Part shown: positions 24,358 to 39,459 of the stretch, one piece after another
How positions within the stretch are numbered: the first letter of the stretch is position 1
Layout: each line of letters begins with the position of its first letter
NCBI GenBank assembly: GCA_948436455.1
Contig: CAOJIB010000002.1
Coordinates: forward strand, 1-43,723
Origin: an uncultured Blautia sp.
Lineage (GTDB): Bacteria > Bacillota > Clostridia > Lachnospirales > Lachnospiraceae
Direction of reading: 5' to 3'
Length of the DNA: 43,723 nt
Position numbers and translations under genes: made by a program
Notes under the pieces: model-generated
Database searches by the model: none
Told to the model about the DNA's origin: nothing
The model's input: only the letters and a program-made list of their open reading frames with translations

Positions 24358-24777
24358 ATGGAAAATCAGAAAATGGAGAATCTGCTGAACCTGGCGCTGG
24401 ACGCAACGGATGAAGAACGGGAAAAATCCCTGAATCTGGACGTGGGCTACGATCCCGAAGAGATGCAGTGGGACGTGATCGTCAAATACTCCGGCGATAT
24501 CACCTGGCTAGAAGAAGAGGGAATTACTGTAGTGCCGCTGCTAAACGAATACGCCGTGCTTACCGTTGCCCAGCGGCAGCTCGCCGCCCTTTCGACTAGG
24601 CCGGAAATCGAGTATATCGAAAAGCCTAAGCGATTATTCTTCGCGGTGAGCCAGGGGCGGGAAGCTTCCTGTATTCTCTCCGTCCAGGGAGCGCCGCTGC
24701 AGCTTACCGGCCGGGGCGTTTTGATGGGAATTGTGGATTCGGGGGCGCGTGTTTCCTTGTTGCGCCTGCGGGCATAG
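24358..24777 (+). pseudogene. Subtilisin-like S8 peptidase, 5' fragment ending at the catalytic Asp motif
   Basis: Residues 1-129 are the N-terminal part of a Clostridial cytosolic S8 peptidase: a prodomain-like segment (LDATDEEREKSLNLDVGYD, YIEKPKRLFF), then GRGVLMGIVDSG with catalytic Asp127. At base 24745 the frame leaves the peptidase and reads ARVSLLRLRA to a stop at 24777. The missing continuation (I-D-Y-R-H-P-D-F) is found 14.2 kb away at 38974. The gene was therefore cut inside the D-S-G-I-D motif by the element described at 24743-38971. The gene family includes the Csp-like germination proteases, but the substrate is unknown. The fragment alone cannot be active. Confidence 0.93.
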
Positions 24778-24824: not shown

Positions 24825-25136
24825 ATGTCTATGTTATCTATGGAAGAATTGCGACGCATGCAAAAGCAGGACATTATGGAGCTGGACAGGAAGAAATTGG
24901 CAAATGCTAAAGATGTGGTGATTGATATGGAAAAGAGCGTAGAGGGTCGTATCCAATCCTTTATCGAACAAACGGGAAATCCCTTCGCGCAGAATGTTGG
25001 GGAGTATATCGTGCAGGTGGGGTACCGGGAGGATACGAACGAGCAGCTGGACGACCGGATGGTGCTGCTTTTGCGGCGGATGGCCCAGCTTACCCTGCCA
25101 AAGCCGCCAGGGGAAGAGCAGGAGGGATGGGAATGA
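24825..25136 (+). CDS. Small protein of unknown function preceding the recombinases, 103 aa
   Basis: A 103-residue soluble, charged, mostly helical protein. The N-terminus is MSMLSMEELRRMQKQDIMEL, and the middle carries ESVEGRIQSFIEQTGNPFAQNVGEYIVQVGY-type sequence (shown here only as a description; the segment spans about residues 46-70). Short proteins with an RIQSFIEQTGNPY-like phrase commonly precede serine recombinase genes in Clostridia (recollection), and may be a DUF6870-type family. Its TGA overlaps the ATG of the first recombinase (ATGA at 25133-25136), so the two are translationally coupled. A role as a recombination directionality or accessory factor is conceivable but unproven. 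Confidence 0.75.
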   Translation: MSMLSMEELRRMQKQDIMELDRKKLANAKDVVIDMEKSVEGRIQSFIEQTGNPFAQNVGEYIVQVGYREDTNEQLDDRMVLLLRRMAQLTLPKPPGEEQEGWE

Positions 25137-25342
25137 ACGGACGGGAATTTTACCACGCGGCCGCGTATCTGCGCCTCAGCCGCGACGACAGAGATGCGGA
25201 CGGGCATAAAGCGGTGAGCGACAGCATCCGTTCCCAGAGGGAGATGATCTGCGCTTATATAGACGGACAGGAGGATATGGAGCTGTATGATATGTATATA
25301 GACGACGGCTGGACGGGGATGAATTTTGCTGGGGTCAGATAA
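25133..25342 (+). pseudogene. Large serine recombinase 1, 5' fragment (catalytic Ser part)
   Basis: Codons 1-65 encode the start of a large serine recombinase: AAYLRLSRDD with the nucleophile Ser16, SIRSQREMI, and YIDDGWTGMNF. After Phe65 the frame enters foreign DNA (A-G-V-R, stop at 25342). The matching continuation (NRPAFRRMM...) begins at 34442. I set the start at ATG 25133, 7 bases after AGGAGGGA and overlapping the stop of the small ORF. Joined, the two parts make a 535-residue recombinase, the same size as its two neighbours (531 and 522). As it stands, the fragment lacks most of the catalytic domain and all of the DNA-binding part. Confidence 0.94.
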
Positions 25343-25344
25343 CG
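25307..25344. other. attL-like left junction of the inner insert
   Basis: Recombinase-1 sequence up to the T-run (25324-25327) is followed by insert DNA. The insert half-site is TGCTGGGGTCAGATAACG (25327-25344). Its reverse complement matches the half-site at the other end (34421-34438) at 12 of 18 positions. The central dinucleotide is TT (25325-25326). Confidence 0.82.
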
Positions 25345-25389
25345 ATGGTAGTTGTTTTCCTACGATCGATACCTGGCCCCAGCTTTTTT
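25328..25389 (+). terminator. Long hairpin with T-run at the left end of the inner insert
   Basis: Outer stem GCTGGGGTCAG (25328-25338) with CTGGCCCCAGC (25373-25383), inner stem CGATGGTAG (25343-25351) with CTACGATCG (25360-25368, one mismatch), loop of 8, then six T (25384-25389). On the plus strand this is a strong intrinsic terminator. It would stop transcripts entering from the broken recombinase gene. It overlaps the left attP half-site. Confidence 0.75.
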
Positions 25390-25434
25390 GTTTTGATAAT
25401 TTCATCCGCGGGAGTTGGCTTTTCGGCCGCTTGT

Positions 25435-26151
25435 TTATCCTCGTCCCTTCATGTGAATGCTGTATTCGTATTTATCGGCCACGAGCTTGATGATGCTGTA
25501 TTCCAGCGGCCCCTGTACCGTATAGGAAATACGTTTGCTGCAAAGCAGCGGAGCGCCGGTGGGGATTTTCAATATTTGTGATTCCATAAAATCGGCGCTG
25601 ACCGCGGACAATGTTTCCGTAGCTTCCGTTAAAATAATGTTATATTTATTTTCCAGAAACTTATAAAGAGCGATAAATTTGCCCTGGTATTGTTCCAGGT
25701 TTGGCGCCAGATTTTCTTTTAGGTAATTAATGATCAAAGCGACCGGCTGGTCGTTGGCGCACTGTACGCGCTGTACCCGATATACCTTGGTATTCGGGGG
25801 GAGCAGGAGGCTTTCCTGTACGATGCTAGGAGCGACCACCTTGTCTACGTTCATGCCCTGGACAGTGACCTGGAAGCCTTTGCTTGTGAGCGTTTCTGTA
25901 ATGGATGTAATATAATTTAGCTTCTGTGTGGTAGATATATCGAGGATTTCAGTTCCGCGCCCCTGCCGCACCTTCAGATAGCCTTCCCCTGCCAGCAGGC
26001 TGATCGCCTTTCGGATCGTGGTCCGGCTGGCGCCGAATTCTTTTTCTAATTGCGTTTCGGTGGGAAGCATCGTTCCGGTTTTGTAAGTGCCCTCCCGGAT
26101 ACGGTTTTTAAGGGTTGTGTAGACTTGGCGATAAGCGGGAATTGTACTCAT
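25435..26151 (-). CDS. GntR-family transcription regulator with UTRA ligand domain
   Basis: The 238 residues have an N-terminal winged helix-turn-helix (about 8-70, IPAYRQVYTTLKNRI ... LPTETQLEKEFGASRTTIRKAISLL) and a C-terminal UTRA effector-binding domain (about 90-235, VQGMNVDKVVAP ... VYRVQRVQCANDQPVALIINYL). This is the HutC/YvoA type, which usually represses sugar or amino-sugar genes until a phosphorylated ligand binds. It is last in the minus-strand operon kinase-SDR-GntR. The GTAATTATGA words in the divergent promoter region at 28581-28787 are its likely operators (inference). GGAGG lies close upstream of the ATG. Confidence 0.93.
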   Translation of the reverse strand: MSTIPAYRQVYTTLKNRIREGTYKTGTMLPTETQLEKEFGASRTTIRKAISLLAGEGYLKVRQGRGTEILDISTTQKLNYITSITETLTSKGFQVTVQGMNVDKVVAPSIVQESLLLPPNTKVYRVQRVQCANDQPVALIINYLKENLAPNLEQYQGKFIALYKFLENKYNIILTEATETLSAVSADFMESQILKIPTGAPLLCSKRISYTVQGPLEYSIIKLVADKYEYSIHMKGRG

Positions 26152-26201
26152 AATATACCTCCAGTATTTCTCTTTTGAATGTTGCTGAAGCAGAATGAGG
26201 G

Positions 26202-26969
26202 CTAGTGGATCGTATAACCGCCGTCAATTACAAGGTTCGTGCCGGTGATCATATTCGAAGATTCACTTGCAAGAAAGACGGCGGCGGCGGCCACCTCCTC
26301 CGGCTTGCAAAAGCGTCCGGCCGGCGTATTGGCAATGGCGTCCTCATGAACCTTTCCCACATCCCAGTATCCGACGATCAGCGGCGTTTCCGTTGCGGTG
26401 GGAGAAATCGCGTTGACCTGTATTCCGTACTGCCCCCATTCATAAGCCAGGGACTTCGTCATGGAAATAATACCGGCCTTGCTCGCGCTGTACGCGACAT
26501 GCTTGTCAATCGATACGATGCCTGCCTGGGAGGCGAGGCTGATGATTTTGCCGCCGTTTCCAAGGCGGATCATTTCCTGGCCGATTCGCTGGGAAATATA
26601 AAACGTACCGGAAAGATTTACGGAAATTACCTTGTCCCAGATGGGGGTAGGCATATCCTTGGCCCAGTCGATATCGCCGACGCCGGCGCTGTTGACCAGG
26701 ACGTCAATACGGCCGAATTTGGCCATGATTTCCTCCACAGCTTTGGAAACAAGCGCCGGCTTAGAGATGTCTGCCTGTACGGTCGTCGCGTGGGGAAGGC
26801 TTTCTTTTGCATGTTCTATTTCTTTTTCGTTCAGGCATACCATGCAGATCGTGGCGCCCTTTTCGGCGAACATTTTGGAAATTGCCAGTCCGATACCGGA
26901 AGCGGCGCCTGTGATCACGGCAATTTTGTTATCAAGCCTGAATTCTGCGTCAGATAGTTTAGTTATCAT
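26202..26969 (-). CDS. Short-chain dehydrogenase/reductase (SDR), sugar or polyol type
   Basis: A classical SDR of 255 residues: cofactor motif TGAASGIG near residue 20, NSAGVG, catalytic Ser in ISLASQAG, and YSASK (Tyr and Lys), then PTATETP and the C-terminal GTNLVIDGGYTI. Such enzymes oxidise or reduce sugar, polyol or keto-acid hydroxyl groups with NAD(P). It starts 4 bases after the kinase stop on the minus strand and is followed by the GntR gene, so the three form one operon. Specificity cannot be read. With the zinc dehydrogenase at 33365 the cassette holds two oxidoreductases. Confidence 0.93.
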   Translation of the reverse strand: MITKLSDAEFRLDNKIAVITGAASGIGLAISKMFAEKGATICMVCLNEKEIEHAKESLPHATTVQADISKPALVSKAVEEIMAKFGRIDVLVNSAGVGDIDWAKDMPTPIWDKVISVNLSGTFYISQRIGQEMIRLGNGGKIISLASQAGIVSIDKHVAYSASKAGIISMTKSLAYEWGQYGIQVNAISPTATETPLIVGYWDVGKVHEDAIANTPAGRFCKPEEVAAAAVFLASESSNMITGTNLVIDGGYTIH

Positions 26970-26973
26970 AATA

Positions 26974-28512
26974 TTACCCTTTCTTTTCGATAAATGGAAG
27001 TAGATTTTTATGCATATAATCGCCTATATCGGCGGTTATATCGCTGATATGCGCAAATACCTGTAAAATATCCTGGTATATTTTGTGATTCTCTTCGTTG
27101 GGGGAGCAGCGCCGCTCGACGATATGGAGTTTTGGAATGCCGGTATAATCCTTCCAGGCGCCTACCGCGCGGGCGCAAATGGCTGCGGCTCCAAGGGAAG
27201 CGGCGTTTTGATCGATGTTTGTTTTCAGGATTTCCATGCCGAAAATATCGGCGAACATCTGCATCCAGAACGCGCTCTTGCTGCCGCCCCCGCAGAACAA
27301 AAGCTCTCCGGACAACGGCGTCTGCCTGCTAAGAAGATCCAGGGACATTTTCAGATTCAGGGCGATCCCTTCCATAGCCGCGCGGATAAGATCGCTTCTT
27401 GATACGCCCAGATGCAGGCCGATATAGGCGCCGCGAATGTGTATGCTTTTATCCTGACTTGTCCCGCCGGCAAGGCTGGGATTAAAGAGAATGCCGTTTG
27501 CGCCGATGGGCGATTGGCTGGCGAGCGTACTCATTTTGTCGTAGACGTCTGCCTCCCCGGCTAGATCCTTGCAAAGGGTATCACGTACCCATTTCAGGGA
27601 GCTGCCGCCGGCGAAAATGGAGTATGCGCTGGTGTACATATTTTCTTCAATGTGGGCGAATACATAGGGTCGTGTGGCCGGATCCAGAATCGGCTCTTTG
27701 GAATTGATCGGAATCCAGTTCGAAGAACCAAGGGAGGTATACGCCTTGCCTTCTACGGAACCGACGGCGCCCAGTGCCATGCAGGCGTTGTCCACGCCGC
27801 CGCAGGCCACGAGGGTGTCGGGCGTCAGGCCGATTTCCCTGGCGGCTTCTTCTGTAATATTGCCGACGATCGTATGAGAAGAGGTGATCGCCGGAAATAA
27901 AGAGGCAGGTACGCCGGCGGCGTCCAGAAAATCCTGCGCGAATTGATGGGCTTTCAGATCATACACGCCTGTGCTGGAAGCATAGGAGTGATCGGTGGCG
28001 ATGCGGCCGGTCAGTCGCATGTTGATGTAATCCTTGGAGCCGATGAATTTGTGCGTTTGACGGTATACCTCGGGCAAATGCTTCCGGTACCACATAATTT
28101 TAAATATCGCGTAACAGGAAGCAGGGAATCCGTTTCCTGTCGCTAGATACCAGGCGGTTTCATCTACAGCGCCGAAAAATTCCTTGGCCTCAGACTGCGC
28201 TCTGGTATCCGACCAGATCGGCACGGAATCCACCAGGAGATTTTGCCTGTCATCTATCGGTATAGCTACGCAACTGTGGCCGGACAGGGCCACGCAGGCG
28301 ATCTCCTTTGGGTCGGTTCCGGAGCGTTTCAGCAAGAGTTTCGTGCTTTCTATGACGCCCTGCCACCAGCTTTGGGGCTTCTGTTCGTGAAATCCAGGCT
28401 GCGGATAGTACGTTTCGTATTCGATGAAGCTTTTGCTCAACGTAGTCAAATGTTCATCGTGAAGAGATGCTTTCACACCTCCCGTTCCCAGGTCATAGGA
28501 AATAAATTTCAT
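26974..28512 (-). CDS. FGGY-family carbohydrate kinase, xylulokinase-like
   Basis: The 512-residue protein has FGGY features: phosphate motif YDLGTGGVKASLHD at the N-terminus, IPIWSDTRAQSE, and the catalytic Asp in VACGGVDNACMALGAVG. The C-terminal ATP motif is LLFCGGGSKSAFWMQMFADI (exact start about residue 405). It would phosphorylate a ketose or polyol taken up by the ABC importer. I set the start at ATG 28512, where GGAGG lies 5 bases upstream; a longer frame from 28551 has no such site. It is the first gene of the minus operon behind a perfect consensus promoter (28581-28609). Confidence 0.92.
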   Translation of the reverse strand: MKFISYDLGTGGVKASLHDEHLTTLSKSFIEYETYYPQPGFHEQKPQSWWQGVIESTKLLLKRSGTDPKEIACVALSGHSCVAIPIDDRQNLLVDSVPIWSDTRAQSEAKEFFGAVDETAWYLATGNGFPASCYAIFKIMWYRKHLPEVYRQTHKFIGSKDYINMRLTGRIATDHSYASSTGVYDLKAHQFAQDFLDAAGVPASLFPAITSSHTIVGNITEEAAREIGLTPDTLVACGGVDNACMALGAVGSVEGKAYTSLGSSNWIPINSKEPILDPATRPYVFAHIEENMYTSAYSIFAGGSSLKWVRDTLCKDLAGEADVYDKMSTLASQSPIGANGILFNPSLAGGTSQDKSIHIRGAYIGLHLGVSRSDLIRAAMEGIALNLKMSLDLLSRQTPLSGELLFCGGGSKSAFWMQMFADIFGMEILKTNIDQNAASLGAAAICARAVGAWKDYTGIPKLHIVERRCSPNEENHKIYQDILQVFAHISDITADIGDYMHKNLLPFIEKKG

Positions 28513-28580
28513 AAAGACCTCCTTCAAATGAAATACTAAAAAACAAAACATATCCGCGGTGTAAGAATGGCTTTCACATA

Positions 28581-28609
28581 ATTATAATAAAGGTAATTAT
28601 GAATGTCAA
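28581..28609 (-). promoter_or_regulatory. Perfect-consensus sigma-70 promoter for kinase-SDR-GntR
   Basis: Minus strand: -35 TTGACA (28604-28609), a 17-base spacer (28587-28603), and -10 TATAAT (28581-28586). The spacer contains TCATAATTACC, the reverse complement of the shared operator word. So strong a promoter would need tight repression, which fits an operator in the spacer. Confidence 0.88.
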
Positions 28610-28781
28610 TTAAAAATACAAATCTAAGATCGTAATTATGACATGAAACGAAAAAATTATATAAAAACGTTATTAAAAACAAATAAATTCGATATGAATT
28701 GGAGATAATTCACAAAATTACAGATAATTTGTTGTAGAATTTAGAATTAAAAGGACTATTGACGATAAAAGGTAATTATGA
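28592..28781. promoter_or_regulatory. Three GTAATTATGA words, probable GntR operators
   Basis: The word occurs at 28592-28602 (GGTAATTATGA), 28631-28641 (CGTAATTATGA) and 28771-28781 (GGTAATTATGA). The first lies in the spacer of the minus promoter and the third in the spacer of the plus promoter. The first also has an inverted partner CATAATTA at 28577-28584. The rest of this 341-base gap (28513-28853) is AT-rich with no gene seen. Confidence 0.75.
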
Positions 28782-28787
28782 TAACGT
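28759..28787 (+). promoter_or_regulatory. Sigma-70 promoter for the aldolase-importer-dehydrogenase operon
   Basis: TTGACG (28759-28764), 17-base spacer, TAACGT (28782-28787) with TGA directly before it (extended -10). The spacer holds the third GTAATTATGA word. It lies 66 bases before the proposed start of the aldolase gene. Confidence 0.75.
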
Positions 28788-28853
28788 AAGAGAAAGAACA
28801 TTACAACAAATGCGGGATAGGAAGGCTTTGGATTTGGAAAGGAGGTTTTAAAA

Positions 28854-29528
28854 ATTATTTCTGCAACAGAAGCTGCCAGATTCATAGATATCAGTGCAGT
28901 GAAAACACATCATACGTTGGCCGACATTGAAGAATTAGTTGCATACGCGAAAAAATATCGCTTTATCAATGTGCATGTTCTTCCGTCCTGGGTTTCTACA
29001 CTGGCTAAAATGTTAAAGGATGTGGAAGGGGTGTACGTAGGGTCGCCGGTGGGGTTTCCCTCGGGGGCGCAGTGCACAGCCATAAAATTATTAGAAGCGC
29101 AGCAGTTATTACAAGATGGTGTAGAAGAAATGGATATTGTAATGAATGTTGGGCGGTTTAAGAACAGAGAATATGCATATGTGCAAGACGAATTGAAAAA
29201 AATCATCAGTATAAAGGATGAAGGCGTCTTGACAAAGGTGATTATTGAGATCAACACATTGACAGACGATGAGATGTTAAAGGCATGTGAGCTCGCGATC
29301 GCCAGCGGGGCTGATTTTGTAAAAACCGGGACCGGATGGGTTCCGGGAGGCGCAAATATCGAAAGGATCCGCAAAATCAAAGAGTACTGCGGTACGGATA
29401 TCAAGATCAAAGCCGCGGGAGGTATCCGTACACAGGAAGATTTTCTAGCTTTATACGAAATGGGCGTGGAAAGAATGGGGATTAATACCCAATCGGCGCT
29501 GCAGATCGTAGAGTCGTTTCAAAAATAA
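28854..29528 (+). CDS. DeoC-family class I aldolase, apparent ATT start
   Basis: The 224-residue TIM-barrel aldolase shows the DeoC pattern: EMDIVMNVG (active-site Asp), Schiff-base Lys in VKTGTGW, and the second Lys in IKIKAAGGIRTQED. DeoC cleaves 2-deoxyribose 5-phosphate, but relatives act on other 2-deoxy or keto sugar phosphates, and here the substrate is unknown. The start is odd. The only near-standard codon is GTG 28899, which lies inside the conserved first strand (FIDISAVKTHHT) and has no ribosome-binding site. AAGGAGG at 28839-28845 points to ATT 28854, 8 bases on, and gives a normal DeoC length. No ATG, GTG or TTG exists in frame between the upstream stop and that point. Confidence 0.87.
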   Translation: MISATEAARFIDISAVKTHHTLADIEELVAYAKKYRFINVHVLPSWVSTLAKMLKDVEGVYVGSPVGFPSGAQCTAIKLLEAQQLLQDGVEEMDIVMNVGRFKNREYAYVQDELKKIISIKDEGVLTKVIIEINTLTDDEMLKACELAIASGADFVKTGTGWVPGGANIERIRKIKEYCGTDIKIKAAGGIRTQEDFLALYEMGVERMGINTQSALQIVESFQK

Positions 29529-29591
29529 TATAAGAGATTCGGTATTTGTAAGTAATGGACGAATGATTAAAACAAAAAAGGAGAATTGTAT

Positions 29592-30794
29592 ATGAGAAAT
29601 TTAAAAAGGTTTATGGCTTGTTTACTTGCAGCAACAATGATGTGCACATCTCTGGTCGGCTGCGGAGGCGGCAGCTCTTCGGACACAGCGGCTGAGGATA
29701 CGACGAAAGAAGAAGCGCCCGCCGAGGAAGCTCCTGCCGAAGAGGCGCCGGCAGAAGATACAGCCGAAGAAGCAGAAGCTCCCAGTGAAGAGGACAGCGG
29801 TATTAATGCGGAAGTAGAGGCGCTGATCGGCGGAAAAGGCGATGGAATGAAGGTAGGTATCGCAGTCAGCGACCTTTCCTCCACATATATCGTAGCGGCG
29901 GCGGAATACGCCAAGAAGCTGTTCGAATTCTCCGGCGCGGAAGTTACACTGGTCAATGCAGAGCAGAATGCGAATACGCAGGCTTCTCAGGTGGACGACT
30001 TTATTTCCGCCGGCTGTAATGTGATCCTGCTCCATGCGGCAGATTCTGATGCGCTGGCAGCATCCGTAGACAAAGCGACGGAAGCAGGCGTGAAGGTGGT
30101 AGGCTTTAATAAAGAAATCTCCAGCGACAATCTGACCTTCGCCGTCGTATCCAGCGATAACGTCGCCACAGGCGCTTCCGCTGCACAGTGGCTGGCTGAT
30201 AAGGCAAAGGAAGAAAACGTGGAAAATCCCAAGATTGCGGTTATTCAGGGAACGATGACACAGAGTGACGCCTACCTTCGTCAGGACGGTATCAATGAAG
30301 TAGCAGAAAAAGAAGGGCTTGTCCTGCTGGAAGAGCCGTGTGAATGGTTAAGCGATAAGGCGGAAAGCGCAATGAGCGACGTACTGACTGCCAATCCGGA
30401 TCTTTTCGGTGTTATTACACATTGCGACAGTATGGACCAGGGCGTAATCTCTGCTCTTCGCCAGAACGGCTTGGATGGCGCGGCAGGCTCCGACAATCAT
30501 GTGTACTGGTCAGGTATCGACGGCGACGCCACAGGCCTTGAATCTCTGGATTCCGGATTTATGGACGTGGCGGTAGAGCAGAACCCGATGGCTCTTTCCA
30601 CCGTGATCGTAAAGGGTGTTTTTGAATATCTGATGAACGATGTTGATCTGGAAGGCGAGATCATTCCTATCGAGACAAAGGTGCTTACTGCGGCGGATAC
30701 AGCGGACGAAACACGCTGGGCTTCCTATAACACAGATTCCGATACCTTATGGGCAGGAACCGTGGAAGCATGGGAGCATTACCTGAACAAGTAA
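29592..30794 (+). CDS. Sugar ABC transporter substrate-binding lipoprotein (RbsB-like)
   Basis: The signal peptide ends TSLVGC (lipobox Cys24), followed by a flexible Glu/Ala/Pro-rich linker of about 45 residues with repeats of PAEEA. The binding domain (type I periplasmic fold, Peripla_BP_4, about 75-395) has IAVSDLSSTYIVAAAEYAKK at its start, VILLHAADSDAL, GFNKEI and DVLTANPDLFGVITHCD. It captures a sugar at the cell surface and hands it to the permease. I set the start at ATG 29592 with AGGAG 8 bases upstream; an in-frame TTG at 29586 is less likely. It is separated from the ATPase gene by a hairpin (30820-30844). Confidence 0.93.
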   Translation: MRNLKRFMACLLAATMMCTSLVGCGGGSSSDTAAEDTTKEEAPAEEAPAEEAPAEDTAEEAEAPSEEDSGINAEVEALIGGKGDGMKVGIAVSDLSSTYIVAAAEYAKKLFEFSGAEVTLVNAEQNANTQASQVDDFISAGCNVILLHAADSDALAASVDKATEAGVKVVGFNKEISSDNLTFAVVSSDNVATGASAAQWLADKAKEENVENPKIAVIQGTMTQSDAYLRQDGINEVAEKEGLVLLEEPCEWLSDKAESAMSDVLTANPDLFGVITHCDSMDQGVISALRQNGLDGAAGSDNHVYWSGIDGDATGLESLDSGFMDVAVEQNPMALSTVIVKGVFEYLMNDVDLEGEIIPIETKVLTAADTADETRWASYNTDSDTLWAGTVEAWEHYLNK

Positions 30795-30819
30795 TGACGG
30801 GCATACTAGAATACATGCA

Positions 30820-30844
30820 CAAAGCGGGCGGTTTGCCCGCTTTG
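30820..30844 (+). promoter_or_regulatory. Intercistronic hairpin between binding protein and ATPase genes
   Basis: A perfect 10-bp stem, CAAAGCGGGC with GCCCGCTTTG, and loop GGTTT. No T-run follows, so it is not a full terminator. Such hairpins often stabilise the upstream mRNA end, giving more binding protein than transporter (known for many ABC operons; inferred here). Confidence 0.7.
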
Positions 30845-30864
30845 CTGCCAATGAGGAGGGTTTC

Positions 30865-32364
30865 ATGATTAAAGAAAGCCTTGAGTTAAGACATATATGT
30901 AAAAGCTTTGGAGCCGTGCAGGTATTGGACGACATTAATCTGACGCTGACGAGCGGGAAGATCTACGGGCTGGCCGGTGAGAACGGCGCGGGAAAATCGA
31001 CGACCATGAAGATCATCAACGGGGCGTATATTGCAGACAAGGGCGAAATACTGATAGACGGCGAGCCGACGCATTTTTCTTCGCCTCTTTCCGCACAGGA
31101 AGCCGGGATTGGCATGGTATATCAGGAATTAAATATGCTGCCGGATCTATCCATTACAGAAAATGTATTCATTTCACGTCTGGCGGATAATAAAGCGGGA
31201 TACATCCGTTGGAATAAGCTGCATGAAAAAACGAAAGAGCTGCTAAAAATGTTGAATCTGGAGCTGGATACGCATATAAAGCTGGGAGATCTAAAGGTAG
31301 CGCATCAGCAGCTGATCGCGATCGTGCGCGCGTTATCCATCGACTGTAAGGTCATCATTCTGGACGAGCCGACCTCTGCATTGACGGAAAAGGACAGCGC
31401 GCTCGTTCTGGATGCGATCAGGCGTTTGAAGGATCTGGGGTATATCATCATATATATATCTCACAAATTACAGGAAATGCTGACGGCGACGGATGAGATT
31501 ATCGTTTTTCGAAACGGCAGAAAGATCGGGCAATACGCGTCGGCGGAGCTGGACGAAGAAAAGCTTTCCGAGCTGATCGCCGGAAGAAAATTAGAGGCTA
31601 AATTTCCGAAGAAGCGCTACCCGCAGGGGAAAGAGCTGCTTCGCTTTGATCATGTTTCCGTAGAAGGGTATCTGGAAGATGTATCCTTTACATTATACGA
31701 AGGCGATATACTGGGATTTGCGGGATTGCTTGGCGCCGGGAAGACAGAAATAGCAAAAACCATATTCGGTGTTTTTGGAAAAAATACGTTTCATATCACA
31801 GGAAAGATCTATTTCGAGGGGAAAGAGCTCCATCCGGAAAATCCGGGGAAAAGCATACAGAATAAGATCGGGCTCGTGCCGGAGAACAGAGCCGCGGAAG
31901 GCCTGGTGACGGATATGTCCATTATGGACAACGCGATCATGGTTTCTCTAAAGAAAATGGCCAGATTTGGCTGGCTGGACAAAAAGGCCGCGAAAACATC
32001 TGTGGACGAGATGATACAATCCCTGGAAATAAAATGCAACGGCATGGGGCAGAAAGTGGGCGACTTAAGCGGCGGAAACCAGCAAAAGGTCGTGCTGGCA
32101 AAATGGCTGACCCTGGGAGCGAAACTGATCATTTTCGACGAGCCGACGAGAGGCATCGACGTGGGCGCGAAGGTGGCGTTCTACGAGCTGATGAATCAGC
32201 TGGTTTCTCAGGGGATCGGCGTGATCATCATGTCCTCGGAAACAGACGAAGTCGTCAATATGTCCGATACGGTCGTAGTATTAAAGGAAGGAAAGGTATC
32301 GGGAACAATCTCCATGAGGGAAAATGAGCAGCTTAGTGAAAAGGATTTCCAGAAATACATGTAA
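30865..32364 (+). CDS. Sugar ABC transporter ATP-binding protein (RbsA/MglA-like, two ABC domains)
   Basis: The 499-residue cytosolic ATPase holds two ABC domains. Domain 1 has Walker A GENGAGKSTT and Walker B VIILDEPTSAL. Domain 2 (from about 255) has the degenerate Walker A GLLGAGKTEI, signature LSGGNQQKV and Walker B LIIFDEPTRGIDVGAK. This layout is typical of CUT2-class importers for ribose, galactose, xylose and similar sugars. In domain 1 the signature region reads LKVAHQQLIAIVRAL, as in the family. AGGAGG precedes the ATG. It is co-directional with the permease gene 14 bases downstream. Confidence 0.95.
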   Translation: MIKESLELRHICKSFGAVQVLDDINLTLTSGKIYGLAGENGAGKSTTMKIINGAYIADKGEILIDGEPTHFSSPLSAQEAGIGMVYQELNMLPDLSITENVFISRLADNKAGYIRWNKLHEKTKELLKMLNLELDTHIKLGDLKVAHQQLIAIVRALSIDCKVIILDEPTSALTEKDSALVLDAIRRLKDLGYIIIYISHKLQEMLTATDEIIVFRNGRKIGQYASAELDEEKLSELIAGRKLEAKFPKKRYPQGKELLRFDHVSVEGYLEDVSFTLYEGDILGFAGLLGAGKTEIAKTIFGVFGKNTFHITGKIYFEGKELHPENPGKSIQNKIGLVPENRAAEGLVTDMSIMDNAIMVSLKKMARFGWLDKKAAKTSVDEMIQSLEIKCNGMGQKVGDLSGGNQQKVVLAKWLTLGAKLIIFDEPTRGIDVGAKVAFYELMNQLVSQGIGVIIMSSETDEVVNMSDTVVVLKEGKVSGTISMRENEQLSEKDFQKYM

Positions 32365-32378
32365 GGTGGTAGAAGATT

Positions 32379-33344
32379 ATGAATAGGGAAAAACTAAAGA
32401 AATTACTTTCGTCAGAAATGTCTATTATATTAGTACTGGTTCTGCTGTGCGTTATTATTTCCATCATCACGCCTACATTCGCATCAACGAGAAATATCAT
32501 GAGCCTGTTGCTGCGGACCTCCTCTACAGGCATACTTGCGATCGGTATGACGTTCGTGATCGCGACCGGTGGGATTGATCTGTCGGTGGGCGGGCAGCTT
32601 ACCCTGATGGCGGTTGTCGGGGCGCTTTTCTTTGAGAATAACTGGCCGGTTCCGGTAGTCATTCTTGTGATTTATGCGCTGGGTCTGCTGTTTGGCCTTT
32701 TCAATGGAGTAGGCGCGTCCGTATTGAAATTTCCTCCATTTATGGTAACGCTTGCCCTGCAGATGATTACCTATGGAGTTACGCTATATATCACAGAGGG
32801 ACGGTCGATTCTGATCAAGCAGGAAAGTTATGAATTCTTCGGGCTTGGAAAGATCGCCGGGATACCGGTGCCGGTATATATTTTCGTTCTTGTAATTATC
32901 ATCGGGACGCTGCTTTTGAAGCGATTTACCGTCGGAAGAAAAATCCTGGCCATCGGAAGCAACGCAAAAGGCGCATGGTATTCCGGGATCAACGTCGCGC
33001 TCACAACAATTATCGCCTATATAATCGCCGGGCTGACAGCTTCCACGGCCGCGATCATCTTAAGCTCAAAATTAATGTCGGCCGCGGCTACTCTAGGGGA
33101 AGGTATGGAGCTGGACGCTATCGCCGCAGTCGTGATCGGCGGTACGAGCCTTGCCGGAGGCAATGGCTATATCGTAGGGACGATCGCAGGCTCTCTGATC
33201 ATCGAAGTTATTTCCAATTGGATGACTTTGCAGAGTGTCAACCCGTTTTTGCGTAACGTAGTAAAGGGCGGAATCATCCTATTGGCGTTACTTATTGATA
33301 ATATTCGCCGCGGCAAGCTGACGAAGAATGAATTTGCCGCATAA
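32379..33344 (+). CDS. Sugar ABC transporter permease (RbsC-like)
   Basis: This 321-residue membrane protein has about eight to ten hydrophobic helices, with the CUT2 permease phrases GMTFVIATGGIDLSVGG near residue 55, NGVGASVLKFPPFMVTLAL, and the coupling-loop region KRFTVGRKILAIGSNAKGAWYSGINV (starting about residue 185), followed by IAAVVIGGTSLAGGNG. It forms the channel for the sugar with the ATPase gene 14 bases upstream. Length is normal for a single-gene permease working as a homodimer. The zinc dehydrogenase gene follows after 20 bases. Confidence 0.94.
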   Translation: MNREKLKKLLSSEMSIILVLVLLCVIISIITPTFASTRNIMSLLLRTSSTGILAIGMTFVIATGGIDLSVGGQLTLMAVVGALFFENNWPVPVVILVIYALGLLFGLFNGVGASVLKFPPFMVTLALQMITYGVTLYITEGRSILIKQESYEFFGLGKIAGIPVPVYIFVLVIIIGTLLLKRFTVGRKILAIGSNAKGAWYSGINVALTTIIAYIIAGLTASTAAIILSSKLMSAAATLGEGMELDAIAAVVIGGTSLAGGNGYIVGTIAGSLIIEVISNWMTLQSVNPFLRNVVKGGIILLALLIDNIRRGKLTKNEFAA

Positions 33345-33364
33345 GGGACGAAAGGAGAAGGATT

Positions 33365-34411
33365 ATGAAGACGATGCGAGCATGGCTGGCCTACGGCCAG
33401 GAAAAAATGGAATTAAAAGAAGTGCCGATGCCAGAGCCGGGACCGGGCGAAGTGCTGGTGAAAATCCGGGCCGTGGGGATCTGCGGGTCCGACATGCATT
33501 TTTATAAAGAAGGGCGTATTGGTCAGTTCATTGTAAACGATCCGATTATTCTGGGACATGAGTGCTCCGGCGATATCGCGGCGGTAGGGTCCGATGTGCA
33601 GGGGCATACCATCGGGGATCGGGTGATCATCGAACCCGGGATTCCCTGCTTCCATTGCCACGACTGCAAAACCGGACGTTACCACTTCTGCAACGATATG
33701 AAGTTTATGGGAACGCCGCCGACGGACGGGTGCCTGTGCGAATATGTGGCATGGCCGGCGGAGCTGGTATACCCGATGCCTGACGGGATGTCCTATGAGG
33801 AAGGGGCGATGGTAGAGCCCTTCGTCGTGGGGATGCAGGCTATGCGCAACAGTGAGATCGGCTTTACGGATAACGCTGTTGTTATCGGCACCGGTCCGAT
33901 CGCCATGATGACAGTTCAGAGTCTGAAGGTCATCGGCGCCAATAAAATCATCTGCGTAGGAAGGAATCCCTGGAAGCTGTCCCTTGCAAAGCGGATGGGA
34001 GCGACCCATCTGATCGACAGCACGAAAGAGGACGTGCAAAAGCGCGTTAAAGAGCTGACGGACGGCTATGGCGCCATGCATGTTTTTGAGGCGGTTGGAA
34101 GTGATCAAACCTACTGGCAGACGACGGAGCTGGTACGCGACGGCGGCACAGTGACTCTTTTAGGGCTGATGGCGCACGACAATACCCCGATGCCCATGGC
34201 CAGCGTTGTTATGCATGGCATTAAGTTTGTTCCGGTGATCCGTTACAGCAATCTTTTTGCAGAAGCCATCGAATCCCTGGAGTATAAGCGGGCGGAGATC
34301 CTGCCGGTGCTTTCCCATAAGTTCGACTTCGAACATAGCCAGGAAGCGTTCCAGAAGGTTGCCCACGAGAATAAAGATGTGATGAAGACGATCATTATGA
34401 TTGGAGAATAA
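33365..34411 (+). CDS. Zinc-dependent medium-chain alcohol dehydrogenase (sorbitol/threonine dehydrogenase type)
   Basis: The 348 residues show catalytic zinc ligands in GICGSDMHF (Cys), GHECSG (His and Glu), and four structural-zinc cysteines in CFHCHDCKTGRYHFC. The cofactor motif is VVIGTGPIAMM in a Rossmann domain. The family oxidises polyols or secondary alcohols to ketones with NAD(P). In this cassette it may convert an imported polyol to a ketose for the FGGY kinase, or act later; this is inference. It is the last gene before the right end, its TAA lying 30 bases from the junction. Confidence 0.94.
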   Translation: MKTMRAWLAYGQEKMELKEVPMPEPGPGEVLVKIRAVGICGSDMHFYKEGRIGQFIVNDPIILGHECSGDIAAVGSDVQGHTIGDRVIIEPGIPCFHCHDCKTGRYHFCNDMKFMGTPPTDGCLCEYVAWPAELVYPMPDGMSYEEGAMVEPFVVGMQAMRNSEIGFTDNAVVIGTGPIAMMTVQSLKVIGANKIICVGRNPWKLSLAKRMGATHLIDSTKEDVQKRVKELTDGYGAMHVFEAVGSDQTYWQTTELVRDGGTVTLLGLMAHDNTPMPMASVVMHGIKFVPVIRYSNLFAEAIESLEYKRAEILPVLSHKFDFEHSQEAFQKVAHENKDVMKTIIMIGE

Positions 34412-34420
34412 GCAGAGTTA

Positions 34421-34458
34421 CGTTACCAAATCCGGGCATTTAACCGCCCCGCCTTCCG
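34421..34458. other. attR-like right junction of the inner insert
   Basis: Insert half-site CGTTACCAAATCCGGGCA (34421-34438), then TT (34439-34440), then recombinase-1 sequence resumes (AACCGCCCCGCC from 34442). The rebuilt target also has partial symmetry: G/C-rich arms (GGACGGGG to the left, CCGCCCCGCC to the right). Confidence 0.82.
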
Positions 34459-35854
34459 CCGTATGATGGGGGACATAGAGGCCGGGAACGTCAACTGCGT
34501 GATCGTCAAAGACTTGTCCAGACTGGGACGGGATTATATTGAAGCCGGGAGGTTGATTCAAAAGACCTTTCCGGCTTTTTTGGTGCGCTTTATCGCGCTG
34601 ACCGATCAATTTGATTCCCTGACGGCGGATGACCATGAAACGTCCCTGGTGCTGCCGGTGAAAAATTTTGTCAACGATTCTTACTGTCGGGACATTTCCA
34701 ACAAGGTGAGAAGCCAGCAGAAAATCAAGCGGGAAAAAGGGGAATTTGTCGGAGCTTTTTGCGTATATGGCTACAGAAAGAGCGACGAAGACCGGCATGT
34801 GCTGACGCCGGATGCCTACGCCGCCGGTATCGTCCAAAGGATTTTTGCCTGGAAGCTGGAAGGCTGCAGCGCCGGCGCTATCGCCCGCCGGCTAAACGGA
34901 TGGGGGATTTCATCTCCGATGGAATATAAAAGGCGGCGGGGTGAAAATTTCCGGACCGGTTTCGCTGTCAATATCAGCCCTCGCTGGTCGGCGGTGGCAA
35001 TTCGGCGCATCTTAACCGATGAAACCTACATCGGAAACCTGGCCCAGGGAAAAGAAGAAAAGATCAACTATAAGGTGAAAAAATCCATCCGAAAACCAAG
35101 AGAGGCATGGATCAGAGTAGAAAATACTCATGAAAGTATCGTTACAAAGGAGGACTTTGATCTAGCGCAGGAGCTTTTAGCGGTGGATACCCGTGCGATC
35201 CGAGGGGAGAAAAAATTTCCGATGTACGCGGGCCTTTTGTTTTGCGGAGACTGCAAAAGGCCGATGGTCCGCCGTCGGGGAAAGGAGCGGACGCGCTTGA
35301 TCTGTTCCTCGCACAATCGCAACGGCTCCTGTGGCCGGCACGCCGTTTGGGAGGAAACGATCGAAGATCTGGTATTGAAAATTTTGCAACAGCAGGTATT
35401 TCTTTTGATGGAAAGGGAATGCGTGGCGGCCCGCACGGAAAATCTGGCGGTATCCTCTGGTGAAATTACCGCCGGAAAAAGGGAAATAGAAAAGTTGCGC
35501 CGGGAGCTTTTGGCCTGCCAATCCCTGCAAAGGGATATGCGAAAGGACTTGGAAAATGGAACGATCACCCGAGAAGATTTCCTCCTTTTTGGCGAAATTT
35601 ATGAAAAGCAGTCCGAGGCGCTGCAACAGATGATCTTGCGGCAGGAACAGATGCTTTGGGTGCTTTTGCAGTCGCTAAGGGAGGCCAAGGAGCGGCTGGC
35701 TTTGGCGAAAGAAACGCTGCAGATCTCGGGGCTGGATCGCCGGACGCTTCTTACGTTTGTAAGCCGTATTCTTGTCTATGAGGACCGTCGGATCTATCTG
35801 GAATTCCGGTACGGGGAGCCGTTTTCGGCCATCATCCGAAAGGAGGCAGGATAA
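34442..35854 (+). pseudogene. Large serine recombinase 1, 3' fragment
   Basis: This is the continuation of the gene started at 25133. It runs NRPAFRRMM, the catalytic-domain motif VIVKDLSRLGRDYIEAG, then the Recombinase DNA-binding domain (about 145-270 of the rebuilt protein), a zinc ribbon (FCGDCKRPM ... CSSHNRNGSCG) and a coiled-coil C-terminus rich in Glu, Leu and Arg. A new ATG at 34463 could in theory start a protein, but it would lack the nucleophilic Ser and most of the first catalytic strands. The frame is otherwise undamaged, suggesting a recent interruption. The stop TAA abuts the ATG of recombinase 2. Confidence 0.94.
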
Positions 35855-37450
35855 ATGCCCGGCGTATCAAAGATGGGAAAAGCGGCAAAGCCGACGTATT
35901 CTGCGGCGATTTATGCGCGGCTGTCGGTGGAGAAAGACGAAAGAAAGGCAGAATCCATCGAGACGCAGATTGCAATTGCAAAGGCGTTTATGGAAACCCG
36001 GCCGGAATTGGTTCTGTATGATTGCTATACCGATCTGGGAAAGACGGGAACGAATTTTCGCCGGGCAGGCTTTGCGCGGATGATGCAGGACGTGCGCCTG
36101 GGAAAAGTCAACTGCGTGATTGTCAAGGATCTGTCCCGTTTTGGACGGAACCACATTGAGACGGGGAATTATCTCGAAAAAATTTTTCCCTTTCTGGGCG
36201 TCCGCTTCATCGCGGTGACCGACGGCTTTGACAGTCTGTATGAAGAAAAAGATAACGCGATGGGCGTGCATTTGAAAAACCTGATCAACGAAATGTACGC
36301 CAGAGACATTGCCGCCAAAGTCCGCGCCGGCAAGCGGGTTCGCCGGGAGCAGGGCAGCTATATCGGAGGCATTTTGCCCTACGGCTATCGCGGAGTCTGG
36401 GAAGAGGGTCGAAAGCGCCTTGTAATAGATGAATCGCCGGCCGCCATTGTGAAAAAAATATACGAATTCTTTTTATCCGGCCAGAATCTGCAGGAAATCA
36501 AAAGCTGGCTGTATGAACAAAAAGTCCACCGTCCCCTGGATTACCGAAAGACGGGCCATGTATACTGGCGGGAGGGGGATATTTTACAGGAATGGCCGAA
36601 GACGACGCTTAAGGGGATTTTGAAAAATCCCGTGTATACTGGCCATTTCATAGGAAATTCGGACGGGGGCCAGAAGGTTCCTTCCATCCAGGAAAATACC
36701 CATGCGGCGATTATCAGTCGGGCGCAGTTTCTTCAGGCTATGGAAAAACTGACAAGGGCTTCCCAAAAATATGGCCGCAAAAAAACGGAGAAGAAAACGG
36801 CTTCGATAGAAGAAGATATTTTTGAAGGTCAAATTTTTTGCGGAATCTGCAACGTGAGAATGTCTGGAAATGTATGTCCCCATACCGGCCGCCTGGATTG
36901 GAAAAAATGTCGAACCGCCCCGATTTCCCGCCGTACGCTGGAGGGCCTGGTACAGATTGTACTGCGTCAGGTATTCGCTCTTTCTTCGACGCGCCTGGAG
37001 GATTTTCACGCAAAAATCTTGCAGGAGGAAAAGGCGCTGAGCCAAAAAATCAGTCGGCTGGATGGAAAAATAGAAAATATCCGCAGAGAGGACAGTCAAA
37101 CATATGCGAAATACCGCGCCGGCGCCCTTGACAGAGAGCAGTTTTTGCAGGAAAGGGAGGAAACAAAGGCCCGAACCATTCTTTTGCAGAGACAGCGAAC
37201 AGAAACCGCCGAATTTTTGAAGAGCCTGGAAGAGATGCGCCCAGAAGGAGAACGGCTTTGGCGTGCGCTGGCGTGGGGCGGTGAAAGGACGGCGCTGACA
37301 AAGGCAATGTGCCGGGCACTTCTTCACCGGATTGAAATTTATCCGGACAAACGGGTAAAGGTGCTTCTTGCCTTTGGCGATGCAAGAATAAAAAAGGAGG
37401 GGAAGCGCGATGAAGGTCTATCGGATCGCCCTATATCTGCGCCTTTCTAA
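35855..37450 (+). CDS. Large serine recombinase 2
   Basis: The 531-residue recombinase has the catalytic nucleophile in AAIYARLSVEKD, the helper motif SIETQI, GKTGTNFRRAGFARMM, and the Arg-rich motif VKDLSRFGRNHIETG. A Recombinase domain follows (about 165-290), then a zinc-ribbon region with CGIC near residue 330 and C-X-HTGRLDWKKC, and a long coiled coil (about 390-470). All expected catalytic residues are present. It overlaps recombinase 3 by 41 bases and starts directly after the stop of recombinase 1, so the three are one operon. Tandem serine recombinase sets occur on some Firmicute integrative elements. Confidence 0.95.
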   Translation: MPGVSKMGKAAKPTYSAAIYARLSVEKDERKAESIETQIAIAKAFMETRPELVLYDCYTDLGKTGTNFRRAGFARMMQDVRLGKVNCVIVKDLSRFGRNHIETGNYLEKIFPFLGVRFIAVTDGFDSLYEEKDNAMGVHLKNLINEMYARDIAAKVRAGKRVRREQGSYIGGILPYGYRGVWEEGRKRLVIDESPAAIVKKIYEFFLSGQNLQEIKSWLYEQKVHRPLDYRKTGHVYWREGDILQEWPKTTLKGILKNPVYTGHFIGNSDGGQKVPSIQENTHAAIISRAQFLQAMEKLTRASQKYGRKKTEKKTASIEEDIFEGQIFCGICNVRMSGNVCPHTGRLDWKKCRTAPISRRTLEGLVQIVLRQVFALSSTRLEDFHAKILQEEKALSQKISRLDGKIENIRREDSQTYAKYRAGALDREQFLQEREETKARTILLQRQRTETAEFLKSLEEMRPEGERLWRALAWGGERTALTKAMCRALLHRIEIYPDKRVKVLLAFGDARIKKEGKRDEGLSDRPISAPF

Positions 37451-38978
37451 AGAAGAGAAGCCCATCCACGGTCAAGGAGAGAGCGGCAGTATCCAGGCTC
37501 AGCGCCGGATGCTGCAAAGCTTTGTGGCGGAAAATTTCACGGATTATCAATTGTTGGAATTTTGCGACGATGGTTATACGGGAACGAATCTTTCTCGGCC
37601 GGGTCTGCAAAGGTTGCTTTCGATGGTGAAAGGATTGGCCGTCGACTGCATTGTAGTCAAGGATTTTTCCAGATTTTCCAGGGACTACATTGTGCTCGGC
37701 TCTTATCTGGAACAGATTTTTCCGTTCATGGGCGTCCGGTTTATTTCCCTCAACGATCATTACGATAGTGAAAATTTCAAAGGAAACACGGGGGACATAG
37801 ACGTGAATTTTCATGGCCTTTTGTATGATCTGTACAGCAAGGATCTTTCCAGGAAAGTGCGCGCCTCTTTAGCCGTCCGGAAGGAAAAGGGCGTTTGGGC
37901 AAGCGGCCACTGTCCTTTTGGCTACGAAAAGGCGCCGGAAGATCGGCATAAGCTCGTTGTGGCCGGGGAGGAAGCAAAAATCGTCCGGCGAATCTTTGCC
38001 CTTGCCGGCGAAGGGAAAACGTCTGTGCAGATTGCCCGGCTATTCAATGAAGAAAAGGTAAAGACGCCGGCGCAGTTCCAGATCGAAAAGGGCCGTATGC
38101 GGCGGACGCCTAAGGGCGGCGTATTTTTATGGAACGTCGCTTTTATTTGCCAGATGTTGAGAAATCCTGTCTATGTGGGCGATCTGGTATATGGAAAATA
38201 CGAAAAGGAGGCCGTCGGCGGGAAGAATCGCCTAAAGCCTCGGAAACAGTGGAAAATTCTTCCGGATCATCACGAGCCGCTCGTTCCCCGGGCGCTCTTT
38301 GAGCGGGTGCAGGCCAGGCGTGGGAAGTATCGGCCTGCGCAGTATCGGCCTGCGCAGTATCGGGAATCCCATCCGTTGGTGGGAACGCTTCTGTGCGGAT
38401 GCTGTAAAAGAAATTTACAGTATCGTCCCGGCCAAAATCCGTATTTTTTCTGTCCGCAGAAATATTCCGGCGCGCAGAAGCTTTGCGTACAGAAGGTAAA
38501 CGCGATGTATCTGGAAGAATATGTGCTTTACAAGCTGCAGCAAAAGCTTTCGGGAGACGGCGGTTTAGAAAGATTGCGAAGAGAATTGGAAACGGAAACA
38601 GAAGACACCAAACGGGCGCTGCAGACGAAGGAAAGGAAAGCGGCCGGGGAATGCCGTAGGCTGCGCCAGGAGCATCTGGAGGCGTACCAAAAATTTGCTT
38701 CCGGGGAAACGGAAGCCTTCCATTCAAAGCGAACGGAACTGCAGGAGGCCGAGCAAGAGCTGCAATGGCTGCGGGAAAAGCTTCTGGAGTTGGAGAAAGA
38801 GCCGGTCAAGCGTTCCGAGCCGCTGCTTGCATTATCAAGGGAAACGGTGGATCGGTATATTCAGCGTATTGTGATCTGGAGAGAAGACGATATAGAAATC
38901 GTTTGGAAATCCGACGAAGAGGATGAAGGGGTGTCCATGGAGCAGGAAAGACACTTAAAGAACAGGAGAGGGGATTGA
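37410..38978 (+). CDS. Large serine recombinase 3, stop codon supplied by the target gene
   Basis: The 522-residue recombinase has nucleophile Ser in ALYLRLSKEE, SIQAQRRML, DDGYTGTNLSRPGL and VKDFSRFSRDYIVLG, then a Recombinase domain (about 165-300), a zinc ribbon (CGCCKRNL ... FFCPQKYSGAQKLC) and a coiled coil. The last codons read R-R-G-D-stop, where the GAT and TGA come from the right-hand flank, i.e. the S8 peptidase gene. In an excised circle the frame would instead read on through the left end of the element for about 19 more residues to TAA at 24802-24804. An AAGGAGGGGAAGCGCG site precedes the ATG. The protein also has a 15-bp tandem repeat at 38328-38364. Confidence 0.94.
   Translation: MKVYRIALYLRLSKEEKPIHGQGESGSIQAQRRMLQSFVAENFTDYQLLEFCDDGYTGTNLSRPGLQRLLSMVKGLAVDCIVVKDFSRFSRDYIVLGSYLEQIFPFMGVRFISLNDHYDSENFKGNTGDIDVNFHGLLYDLYSKDLSRKVRASLAVRKEKGVWASGHCPFGYEKAPEDRHKLVVAGEEAKIVRRIFALAGEGKTSVQIARLFNEEKVKTPAQFQIEKGRMRRTPKGGVFLWNVAFICQMLRNPVYVGDLVYGKYEKEAVGGKNRLKPRKQWKILPDHHEPLVPRALFERVQARRGKYRPAQYRPAQYRESHPLVGTLLCGCCKRNLQYRPGQNPYFFCPQKYSGAQKLCVQKVNAMYLEEYVLYKLQQKLSGDGGLERLRRELETETEDTKRALQTKERKAAGECRRLRQEHLEAYQKFASGETEAFHSKRTELQEAEQELQWLREKLLELEKEPVKRSEPLLALSRETVDRYIQRIVIWREDDIEIVWKSDEEDEGVSMEQERHLKNRRGD
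38328..38364 (+). repeat. 15-bp tandem repeat within recombinase 3
   Basis: TATCGGCCTGCGCAG occurs twice in tandem (38328-38342, 38343-38357), followed by a third partial TATCGGG. It encodes YRPAQ-YRPAQ-YR directly before the zinc ribbon. The unit is a multiple of three, so copy-number changes keep the frame. Confidence 0.9.
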
Positions 38979-39459
38979 TTATCGCCATCCGGATTTTCAA
39001 AATCCCGACGGCACGACTCGGATCTTGACGTTGTGGGATCAGTCCAGGCCTGGAAATCCCCCCGAGGGCTACCGGCAGGGCACAGTGTACACCCAGGAGG
39101 AGATCAACGAAGCCTTGCAGGCGCCCACCCGGGCGGAGGGAGAGCAGATCGTGCCCAGCCGGGATTTAAGCGGCCATGGCACTCAGGTGGCGGGAATTGC
39201 CGCCGGCAACGGCGCTTCCTCCCAGGGCGTGCAAAAGGGCGTGGCGCCGGAGGCTACGTTGGCGGTGGTAAAGCTGGCGGCGCCGAAGGAAAATTCCTTT
39301 CCCCGGACGACGGAGCTGATCCAGGGAATCGATTACCTGGTCCGGCTGGCGCTCGCCCGGCAGATGCCGCTGGTAATCAACGTAAGCTTCGGAAACAATT
39401 ATGGCTCTCATGAGCCATATAACAAAGGGAAACGTATTTCTAGAAAATATTGTTTTTAA
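38974..39459 (+). pseudogene. Subtilisin-like S8 peptidase, middle fragment with catalytic His
   Basis: Directly after the element the peptidase frame resumes: IDYRHPDFQNPDGTTRI, then SRDLSGHGTQVAGIAAG with the catalytic His, and VINVSFGNNYGSH. The frame leaves the family at about base 39412 and ends in EPYNKGKRISRKYCF. The rest of the protease, including the oxyanion Asn and catalytic Ser (about 280 residues), is missing from the window. So even after excision of the element the gene would be non-functional. The break lies at a perfect palindrome (39400-39419). Internal TTG/ATG codons are not taken as real starts. Confidence 0.9.
39400..39419. repeat. Palindrome at the second break of the S8 peptidase
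   Basis: TATGGCTC (39400-39407), loop TCAT, GAGCCATA (39412-39419). The left arm is coding sequence of the peptidase, and the right arm begins where homology is lost. The source of the rearrangement is unknown. Confidence 0.8.

Follow-up and report, generated by a model that had tools for sequence, protein, structure and literature searches.

The gene cassettes of integrons carry cargo but no recombinase, the enzyme that moves them being encoded elsewhere, and this enzyme is a tyrosine recombinase that acts on a folded single-stranded attC site. Related arrangements have been described for several other groups of elements. Cis-mobilizable elements (CIMEs) keep attL and attR, lack recombination and transfer genes and are described as decayed (PMC5704250), while 15 ssrA islands of Dehalococcoides have no integration module (PMC3146451) and excision of the arginine catabolic mobile element (ACME) by CcrAB2 in trans has been shown by experiment (PMC2768820). 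Elements of large serine recombinases (LSRs) nested in a larger element have been reported from C. difficile (PMC3158075), and the multi-targeting LSR clade marked by the DUF4368 domain includes TndX-like enzymes, with a TT core given for one multi-targeting LSR (PMC10083194). Here we analyse a stretch of 43,723 nucleotides from an uncultured Blautia sp. (contig CAOJIB010000002.1; the whole stretch is termed the window) in which a sugar-catabolism cassette splits a serine recombinase gene, recombinase 1. We read this insert, with a probability of roughly 0.6, as an integrated recombinase-less element of a DUF4368-type LSR family that was inserted in trans by such an LSR, perhaps the one encoded on contig C24 of the same genome. 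The insert itself, its left end, its family and its target are well supported, and the right end rests on its position.

Recombinase 1 starts at 25133, and its 5′ part (codons 1-65, 25133..25326; this and all features below are on the plus strand unless stated) contains the left arm of attB and ends in ...DDGWTGMNF, the Phe of which is codon 65. The frame is lost at this codon and regained at 34441, where the 3′ part of the gene (34441..35854) starts with the last base of codon 65. With the insert taken out, the flanks form a single open frame, 535 codons long plus a stop, in which ...GWTGMNF runs directly into NRPAFRRM..., bearing out the claim of a preceding sequence-only reading that the gene is split after codon 65 and that removal of 9,114 bases restores it. 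This is the distance between two TT cores at 25325 and 34439. The attL core (25325..25326) supplies bases 1-2 of the Phe codon, a placement shared by the C24 element and the relatives considered below, and the attR core occupies 34439..34440. Between them lie the left half-site TGCTGGGGTCAGATAACG (25327..25344) and the right half-site CGTTACCAAATCCGGGCA (34421..34438), each present as a single copy in the window. The two half-sites form the imperfect palindrome that had been predicted, matching at 12 of 18 positions, a value equalled by 20 of 20,000 random 38-mers from the window; a chance origin of the palindrome was ruled out by the left-end matrix score and the hairpin comparison given below together with the restored frame. 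Attachment ends resembling attP with a TT core, placed inside a serine recombinase gene, were likewise supported.

A search of the window's own genome (an assembly of 187 contigs, 87% complete) with the DNA of the insert returned a pair of short matches on contig C24, one for each insert end; the remaining matches fell inside cassette genes, mostly the transporter ATPase. On C24 another LSR gene is split at the same codon (...DDGWTGTNF before the break and ARPAFRRM... after it) by an element of 5.0 kb (L009, G000:C24, 4847-9852) with cores 5,004 bp apart, containing a hybrid histidine kinase and an intact 557-aa LSR with Resolvase, Recombinase, Zn-ribbon and DUF4368 domains. The genome gives 18 LSR matches, and the 17 besides the C24 LSR, recombinases 1-3 included, are at most 34% identical, the C24 LSR being the only family-level LSR found there. 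The 14-mer GGGGTCAGATAACG occurs with up to one mismatch at two places in this genome, the left ends of the window insert and of the C24 element. The right ends of the two are partly alike (GTTACGTTACCAAATCC and GTTACGTTCCCAAACCC). Comparison by blastn-short aligned 16 bp of the left ends and, elsewhere, stretches of 11-15 bp, and the idea that the two elements have more than their ends in common was rejected. The expectation that the same ends and the same genes would recur at other loci held for the ends, which are matched at C24, and failed for the cargo, which is different there. The proposal that the enzyme for the TT site is probably encoded elsewhere in the genome gained support, and the C24 LSR is now a candidate. 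Within the C24 element the hybrid histidine kinase gene separates the left end from the LSR gene, which adjoins the left end in 75 of 77 relatives. The genome also holds further tandem LSR genes (L221, G000:C89, and L222, G000:C136); the recombinase 1-like gene of C89 has an uninterrupted target codon and a stop just upstream of it.

To place the insert ends within a family we scanned named genomes with the C24 LSR and took the best 80 of 238 relatives, which are 69-81% identical. Variants of the left half-site were present in 77 of these 80 as eight distinct forms, TTTG(C/T)T(A/G)(A/G)GGTNAGATA(A/G)CG, while three of the 80 (L038, L062 and L063) had no left end of the searched form. In 75 of the 77 the left end lies no more than 120 bp past the LSR stop, the others being L096 (2.0 kb) and L104 (0.9 kb). 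The window boundary carries this family left half-site, TTYGYYRRGGTNAGATARCG. A matrix made from nine half-sites (the eight forms and C24, window excluded) scored the window left end at 31.2 of 32.8 bits; the runner-up position in the window reached 12.0, and the highest score in 50 single-strand shuffles was 18.9. Family right ends, seen in L064, L076, L078, L102, L104, L184-L187, L199 and L204, have the sequence CGTTA... and meet the target at this Phe codon as well; what fixes the right half-site of the window is where it lies, the frame that is restored and a partial resemblance to the right end of C24. In 299 family genomes, two exact matches to GGGGTCAGATAACG outside the window's own genome (L030 and L031) had no family context in their flanks and were taken as chance, and the pattern TTYGYYGGGGTCAGATAACGAT was not found in viral contigs. 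Nineteen loci from many genera (L039-L061) share one left half-site and have LSRs of 98.7-100% mutual identity, suggesting that a single element has spread widely in recent times.

The left end has a second feature in common with the family. At 25328..25389 the half-site can pair with an inverted copy just inside it to form a hairpin that is followed by six T residues, and reading of predicted folds revealed such a hairpin in the window and, among 21 distinct left ends of relatives (76 bases each), in 16; it was not seen in the folds of C24, L037, L039, L044, L056 and L104. When the window was aligned with eight relatives selected for showing the hairpin, 87.9% of the cells of a 17-pair helix were paired, compared with at most 46.8% when the alignment was slid. 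Four pairs had changed on both sides (equalled in 19 of 500 shuffles) and the covariation score was reached by no shuffle, while the number of further pair types was unremarkable (12 versus a shuffled mean of 11.2; 199 of 500). One pair is C-G in the window alone and A-U, U-A or G-U in the others. The six T residues behind the stem raise the possibility that the hairpin may also terminate transcription from the split gene.

These features bear on two other accounts of the locus. The sugar operon could have been placed in the recombinase gene by faulty assembly or binning, and the number of contigs and the incompleteness of the assembly speak for such an error; against this, both junctions coincide with half-sites of the family and their joining restores the frame, the C24 element shows matching ends at this codon of another gene, and relatives share the left-end hairpin, so that we regard an artefact as the least probable of the explanations considered. 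Only marginally more credible is that the responsible enzyme was recombinase 2 or 3, or another LSR of the genome that is not of DUF4368 type. Both recombinases adjoin the insert and the 17 additional LSR-like matches provide further candidates, but the left end of the window is of the kind found on DUF4368-type elements, Pfam scans give no DUF4368 in recombinases 1-3 at E 0.001, and recombinases 2 and 3 both lie within an element that is bounded in a subtilase gene and has a G-rich junction.

The position of the insert within a recombinase gene recurs throughout the family. The best-80 relatives and the loci found by a left-end pattern search together gave 89 distinct flanks of insertions (those of the window and C24 among them, locus L126 counted as a miss), 62 of which encode D(D/N)GxxGxx(F/L) ending exactly at the core; the motif is present in 18 of the 28 pattern-found flanks taken alone. 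Among the other 27 flanks C is found at -11 before the core in 21, G at -9 in 23 and G at -8 in 21, bases compatible with the motif's Ser/Thr-Gly codons. In the window the TT core falls at the Phe codon of DDGxxGxxF-x-RP, the usual although not the sole target of the family. Judged from these flanks, the family appears to insert most often at one conserved serine recombinase codon, the Phe of DDG(Y/W/F)(S/T)GxxF-x-RP, with a TT core, and since 62 of 89 distinct flanks hit this codon the choice of a recombinase gene is probably not incidental. In a test that set aside L126 and the window, a target matrix built from 26 non-recombinase flanks lifted only 26 of 61 recombinase targets beyond the 99th background percentile, and on this comparison the attB signal is real but loose. 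Avoidance by the LSRs of their own genes was considered and is not claimed: the C24 LSR gene and the family LSR genes compared with it encode GVSFERE at the motif, but the scores of their left arms fall within the range of used targets.

Intact counterparts of the target gene, a check proposed with the sequence-only reading, do exist. In the genus sample (60 genomes including that of the window, 17 of them with a recombinase 1 match at E ≤ 1e-80) uninterrupted homologs of recombinase 1 were identified at L165-L171 with 46-50% identity. Other homologs with 48-58% identity (L184-L187) are split at the same codon; these come from five records picked as carriers of family elements and therefore provide no proof of a hot spot in recombinase 1. 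Recombinase genes split at this codon, with family right ends, are present at L184-L187, L199 and L204, all in records selected as carriers. We found no statement of a preference of such elements for recombinase genes in the literature searched, which covered few subscription papers.

The insert contains eight genes with predicted roles in sugar metabolism, transport and regulation, all of which match non-recombinase Pfam families. Neither a Pfam scan of the eight genes nor tblastn with the C24 LSR found a recombinase inside the insert, and the latter gave no LSR remnant, nothing better than E 3.7, and a hidden or degraded LSR was rejected on this basis. This agrees with the earlier observation that only metabolic, transport and regulatory genes and no integrase are present, and in the absence of an LSR of its own the insert is at most a non-autonomous relative of DUF4368-type LSR elements. 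In the mechanism that we favour, an element bounded by the attachment half-sites of the DUF4368-type (TndX-like) LSR family would circularise and then integrate as a non-autonomous passenger, the enzyme coming in trans from an autonomous family member such as the C24 element. This mechanism would require that the C24 LSR, or one like it, binds the window ends and that the cassette was built around its attachment sites rather than left by decay, and it would allow for continued excision.

How often such elements lack an LSR was addressed with a left-end pattern search of 397 family genomes (21 ends) and 392 order genomes (7 further ends), samples that overlap and include the window's own genome; for the order genomes a tighter pattern was used, one that would miss the window. 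Of the 28 left ends found, 20 have an LSR inside, six are cut by a contig end (L113, L123, L125, L159, L160 and L162) and two have none within 1.5 kb. Among the 20, the C24 LSR lies further in and the L157 LSR is a short piece before a contig end. One of the two ends with no LSR, L126, has no family context, and as about 0.5 chance matches are expected by hand calculation it was set aside, leaving the window as the only clear recombinase-less case seen. A single case of this kind fits a passenger moved in trans as well as one decayed element. Action in trans is favoured by the resident C24 element, by the compact layout, with 9 bp from the stop of the alcohol dehydrogenase gene to the right half-site, and by the lack of a detectable remnant; decay is favoured by the rarity of recombinase-less cases and by the GntR gene sitting where relatives have their LSR.

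In the account by decay, an autonomous element with its own LSR beside the left-end hairpin carried the sugar cargo into recombinase 1 and later lost the LSR by deletion, fixing the island in the manner of a CIME. In nearly all relatives the LSR stop lies within 120 bp of the left end, matching in both strand and location the present end of the GntR gene; 20 of the 21 left ends whose interior could be read (L126 set aside) contain an LSR, and CIMEs are described as arising in this way in the passages of PMC5704250. Against this, no LSR remnant was found in the insert, and the GntR gene has an open frame that stops 45 bp short of the run of T behind the hairpin, so that the loss would have been a clean one; the genome moreover holds an autonomous element whose ends match and whose cargo differs. 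We consider decay a serious contender, though clearly a less probable one than insertion in trans.

A number of observations weigh against insertion in trans by the C24 LSR. With L126 set aside, the LSR is missing from just 1 of 21 readable left ends, which does not support a standing class of recombinase-free cassettes, and the pattern used to find ends had been derived from elements with an LSR as well as from the window and C24. The left half-site of the window agrees with that of C24 at 16 of 18 positions, with L078 at 17 and with four more elements at 16, and the right half-site agrees with C24 at 12 of 18 and with six other elements at 8-11, so that C24 is no closer than others at the left and only a little ahead at the right. 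Because the C24 left end has no hairpin, the window ends may derive from another element, and given the 87% completeness of the genome a further family LSR may be unassembled. A right-end matrix from seven distinct sites (L064, L076, L078, L104, L184, L186 and C24, with the L102 right end left out) gave the window right half-site 13.9 of 29.8, a score exceeded at three other places in the window and by the best shuffle (18.8), so that by matrix alone this half-site is weak. Finally, the target arm of the window reaches only the top 3.75% of background in the matrix of non-recombinase targets.

The cargo begins on the minus strand with a GntR/UTRA regulator (25435..26151), an SDR (short-chain dehydrogenase/reductase) of the GolD/DthD family (26202..26969; NF005309, 306 bits, cut-off 286) and an FGGY carbohydrate kinase (26974..28551). 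On the plus strand follow a DeoC-type aldolase (28899..29528; TIGR00126, 182 bits, cut-off 117), a sugar-binding protein (29586..30794), an ATPase (30865..32364) and a permease (32379..33344), the last three forming a three-part sugar ATP-binding cassette transporter, and a zinc-dependent alcohol/polyol dehydrogenase (33365..34411) whose stop is the one 9 bp before the right half-site. The combination of a kinase, a DeoC aldolase and two dehydrogenases (25435-34411) suggests, from predicted functions, breakdown of a polyol or deoxy-sugar. The G+C content of the insert differs little from that of its surroundings (49.3% versus 51.5-53.3%).

Relatives of the kinase and DeoC genes with a nearby GntR gene were found in six other genomes (L153-L155 and L218-L220) with approximately 50-69% protein identity. 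The divergent layout of GntR, kinase and DeoC is kept in G309 (L218), the other five being arranged differently. No full left half-site was found near these relatives in the six genomes, and three 12-mers with one mismatch (one in L220 and two in L155) had no family context. The versions at L153-L155 are larger, with no fewer than two FGGY kinases and three DeoC-like matches. No close donor of the cargo was found among the genomes compared. The same ends with the same cargo were not seen in 59 other genomes of the genus by DNA search or, in 396 other family genomes, among the kinase relatives that passed E ≤ 1e-190, a threshold reached in three genomes (L218-L220), one of them with a short contig as its context; nor did the 59 genus genomes and the best kinase relatives in the 396 include an intact relative with this cargo.

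The insert lies in an array of three recombinase genes that is itself part of an outer element. Upstream are the 5′ part of a Csp-type subtilase gene (24358..24777; CspB prodomain, PF18425, E 1e-33), the target of the outer element, and a small DUF6870 gene (24825..25136; PF21757, E 2e-21). Downstream of recombinase 1 follow the LSR genes recombinase 2 (35855..37450) and recombinase 3 (37410..38978) and, at the far side of the outer element, a subtilase fragment (39025..39459) covering profile positions 48-121 of 288. The array appears to interrupt the subtilase gene between VDSG and IDYRHPDF with a G-rich junction, making the sugar cassette the inner doll of a nested insertion.

If the step in trans is true, a resident integrase can insert whole catabolic operons that have no integrase of their own, and the landing site arrives with the serine recombinase elements themselves. 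The target preference means that the family often breaks the recombinase genes of other mobile elements, a conflict of element against element, and the preferred attB is of help in understanding the specificity of DUF4368 LSRs. More tentatively, and with the odds rather against it, we propose that the family favours the sequence coding for the DDG-SG-NF motif, by which it both rides on other elements and breaks their recombinase, and that its resident members move recombinase-free metabolic cassettes in trans.

Set beside the described systems, the locus shares with the LSRs of PMC10083194 the domain set, seen in the C24 LSR, the TT core and the many target genes within the family; in the passages considered, the target-gene analysis of that study omits the multi-targeting clade, and no preference for recombinase genes is mentioned. 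Like a CIME the insert keeps its attachment sites and no recombinase or transfer genes were found in it, but CIMEs, as portrayed in the passages available, sit in tandem with an incoming element by accretion, whereas the insert is alone in its target and the family LSR lies on another contig. ACME and the staphylococcal cassette chromosome (SCC) offer the parallel of a metabolic island that serine recombinases excise in trans (PMC2768820), and differ in recombinase type, in their attB in orfX, in a size of typically ~30 kb and in host group. The ssrA islands similarly have catabolic cargo at a serine recombinase attachment site, and differ in their ssrA target, their CcrB-like enzyme and their frequent tandem arrangement with other islands. 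Compared with an integron cassette, the insert has double LSR half-sites and eight genes, and forms no array. The sequence-only reading had presented it as a new kind of element, a serine-integrase counterpart of the gene cassette; this was overstated, since with CIMEs, ssrA islands and ACME excised in trans already described, the principle of recombinase-less elements flanked by attachment sites is known. What sets this element apart within that principle is its LSR family, the landing site in a recombinase gene and this metabolic cargo.

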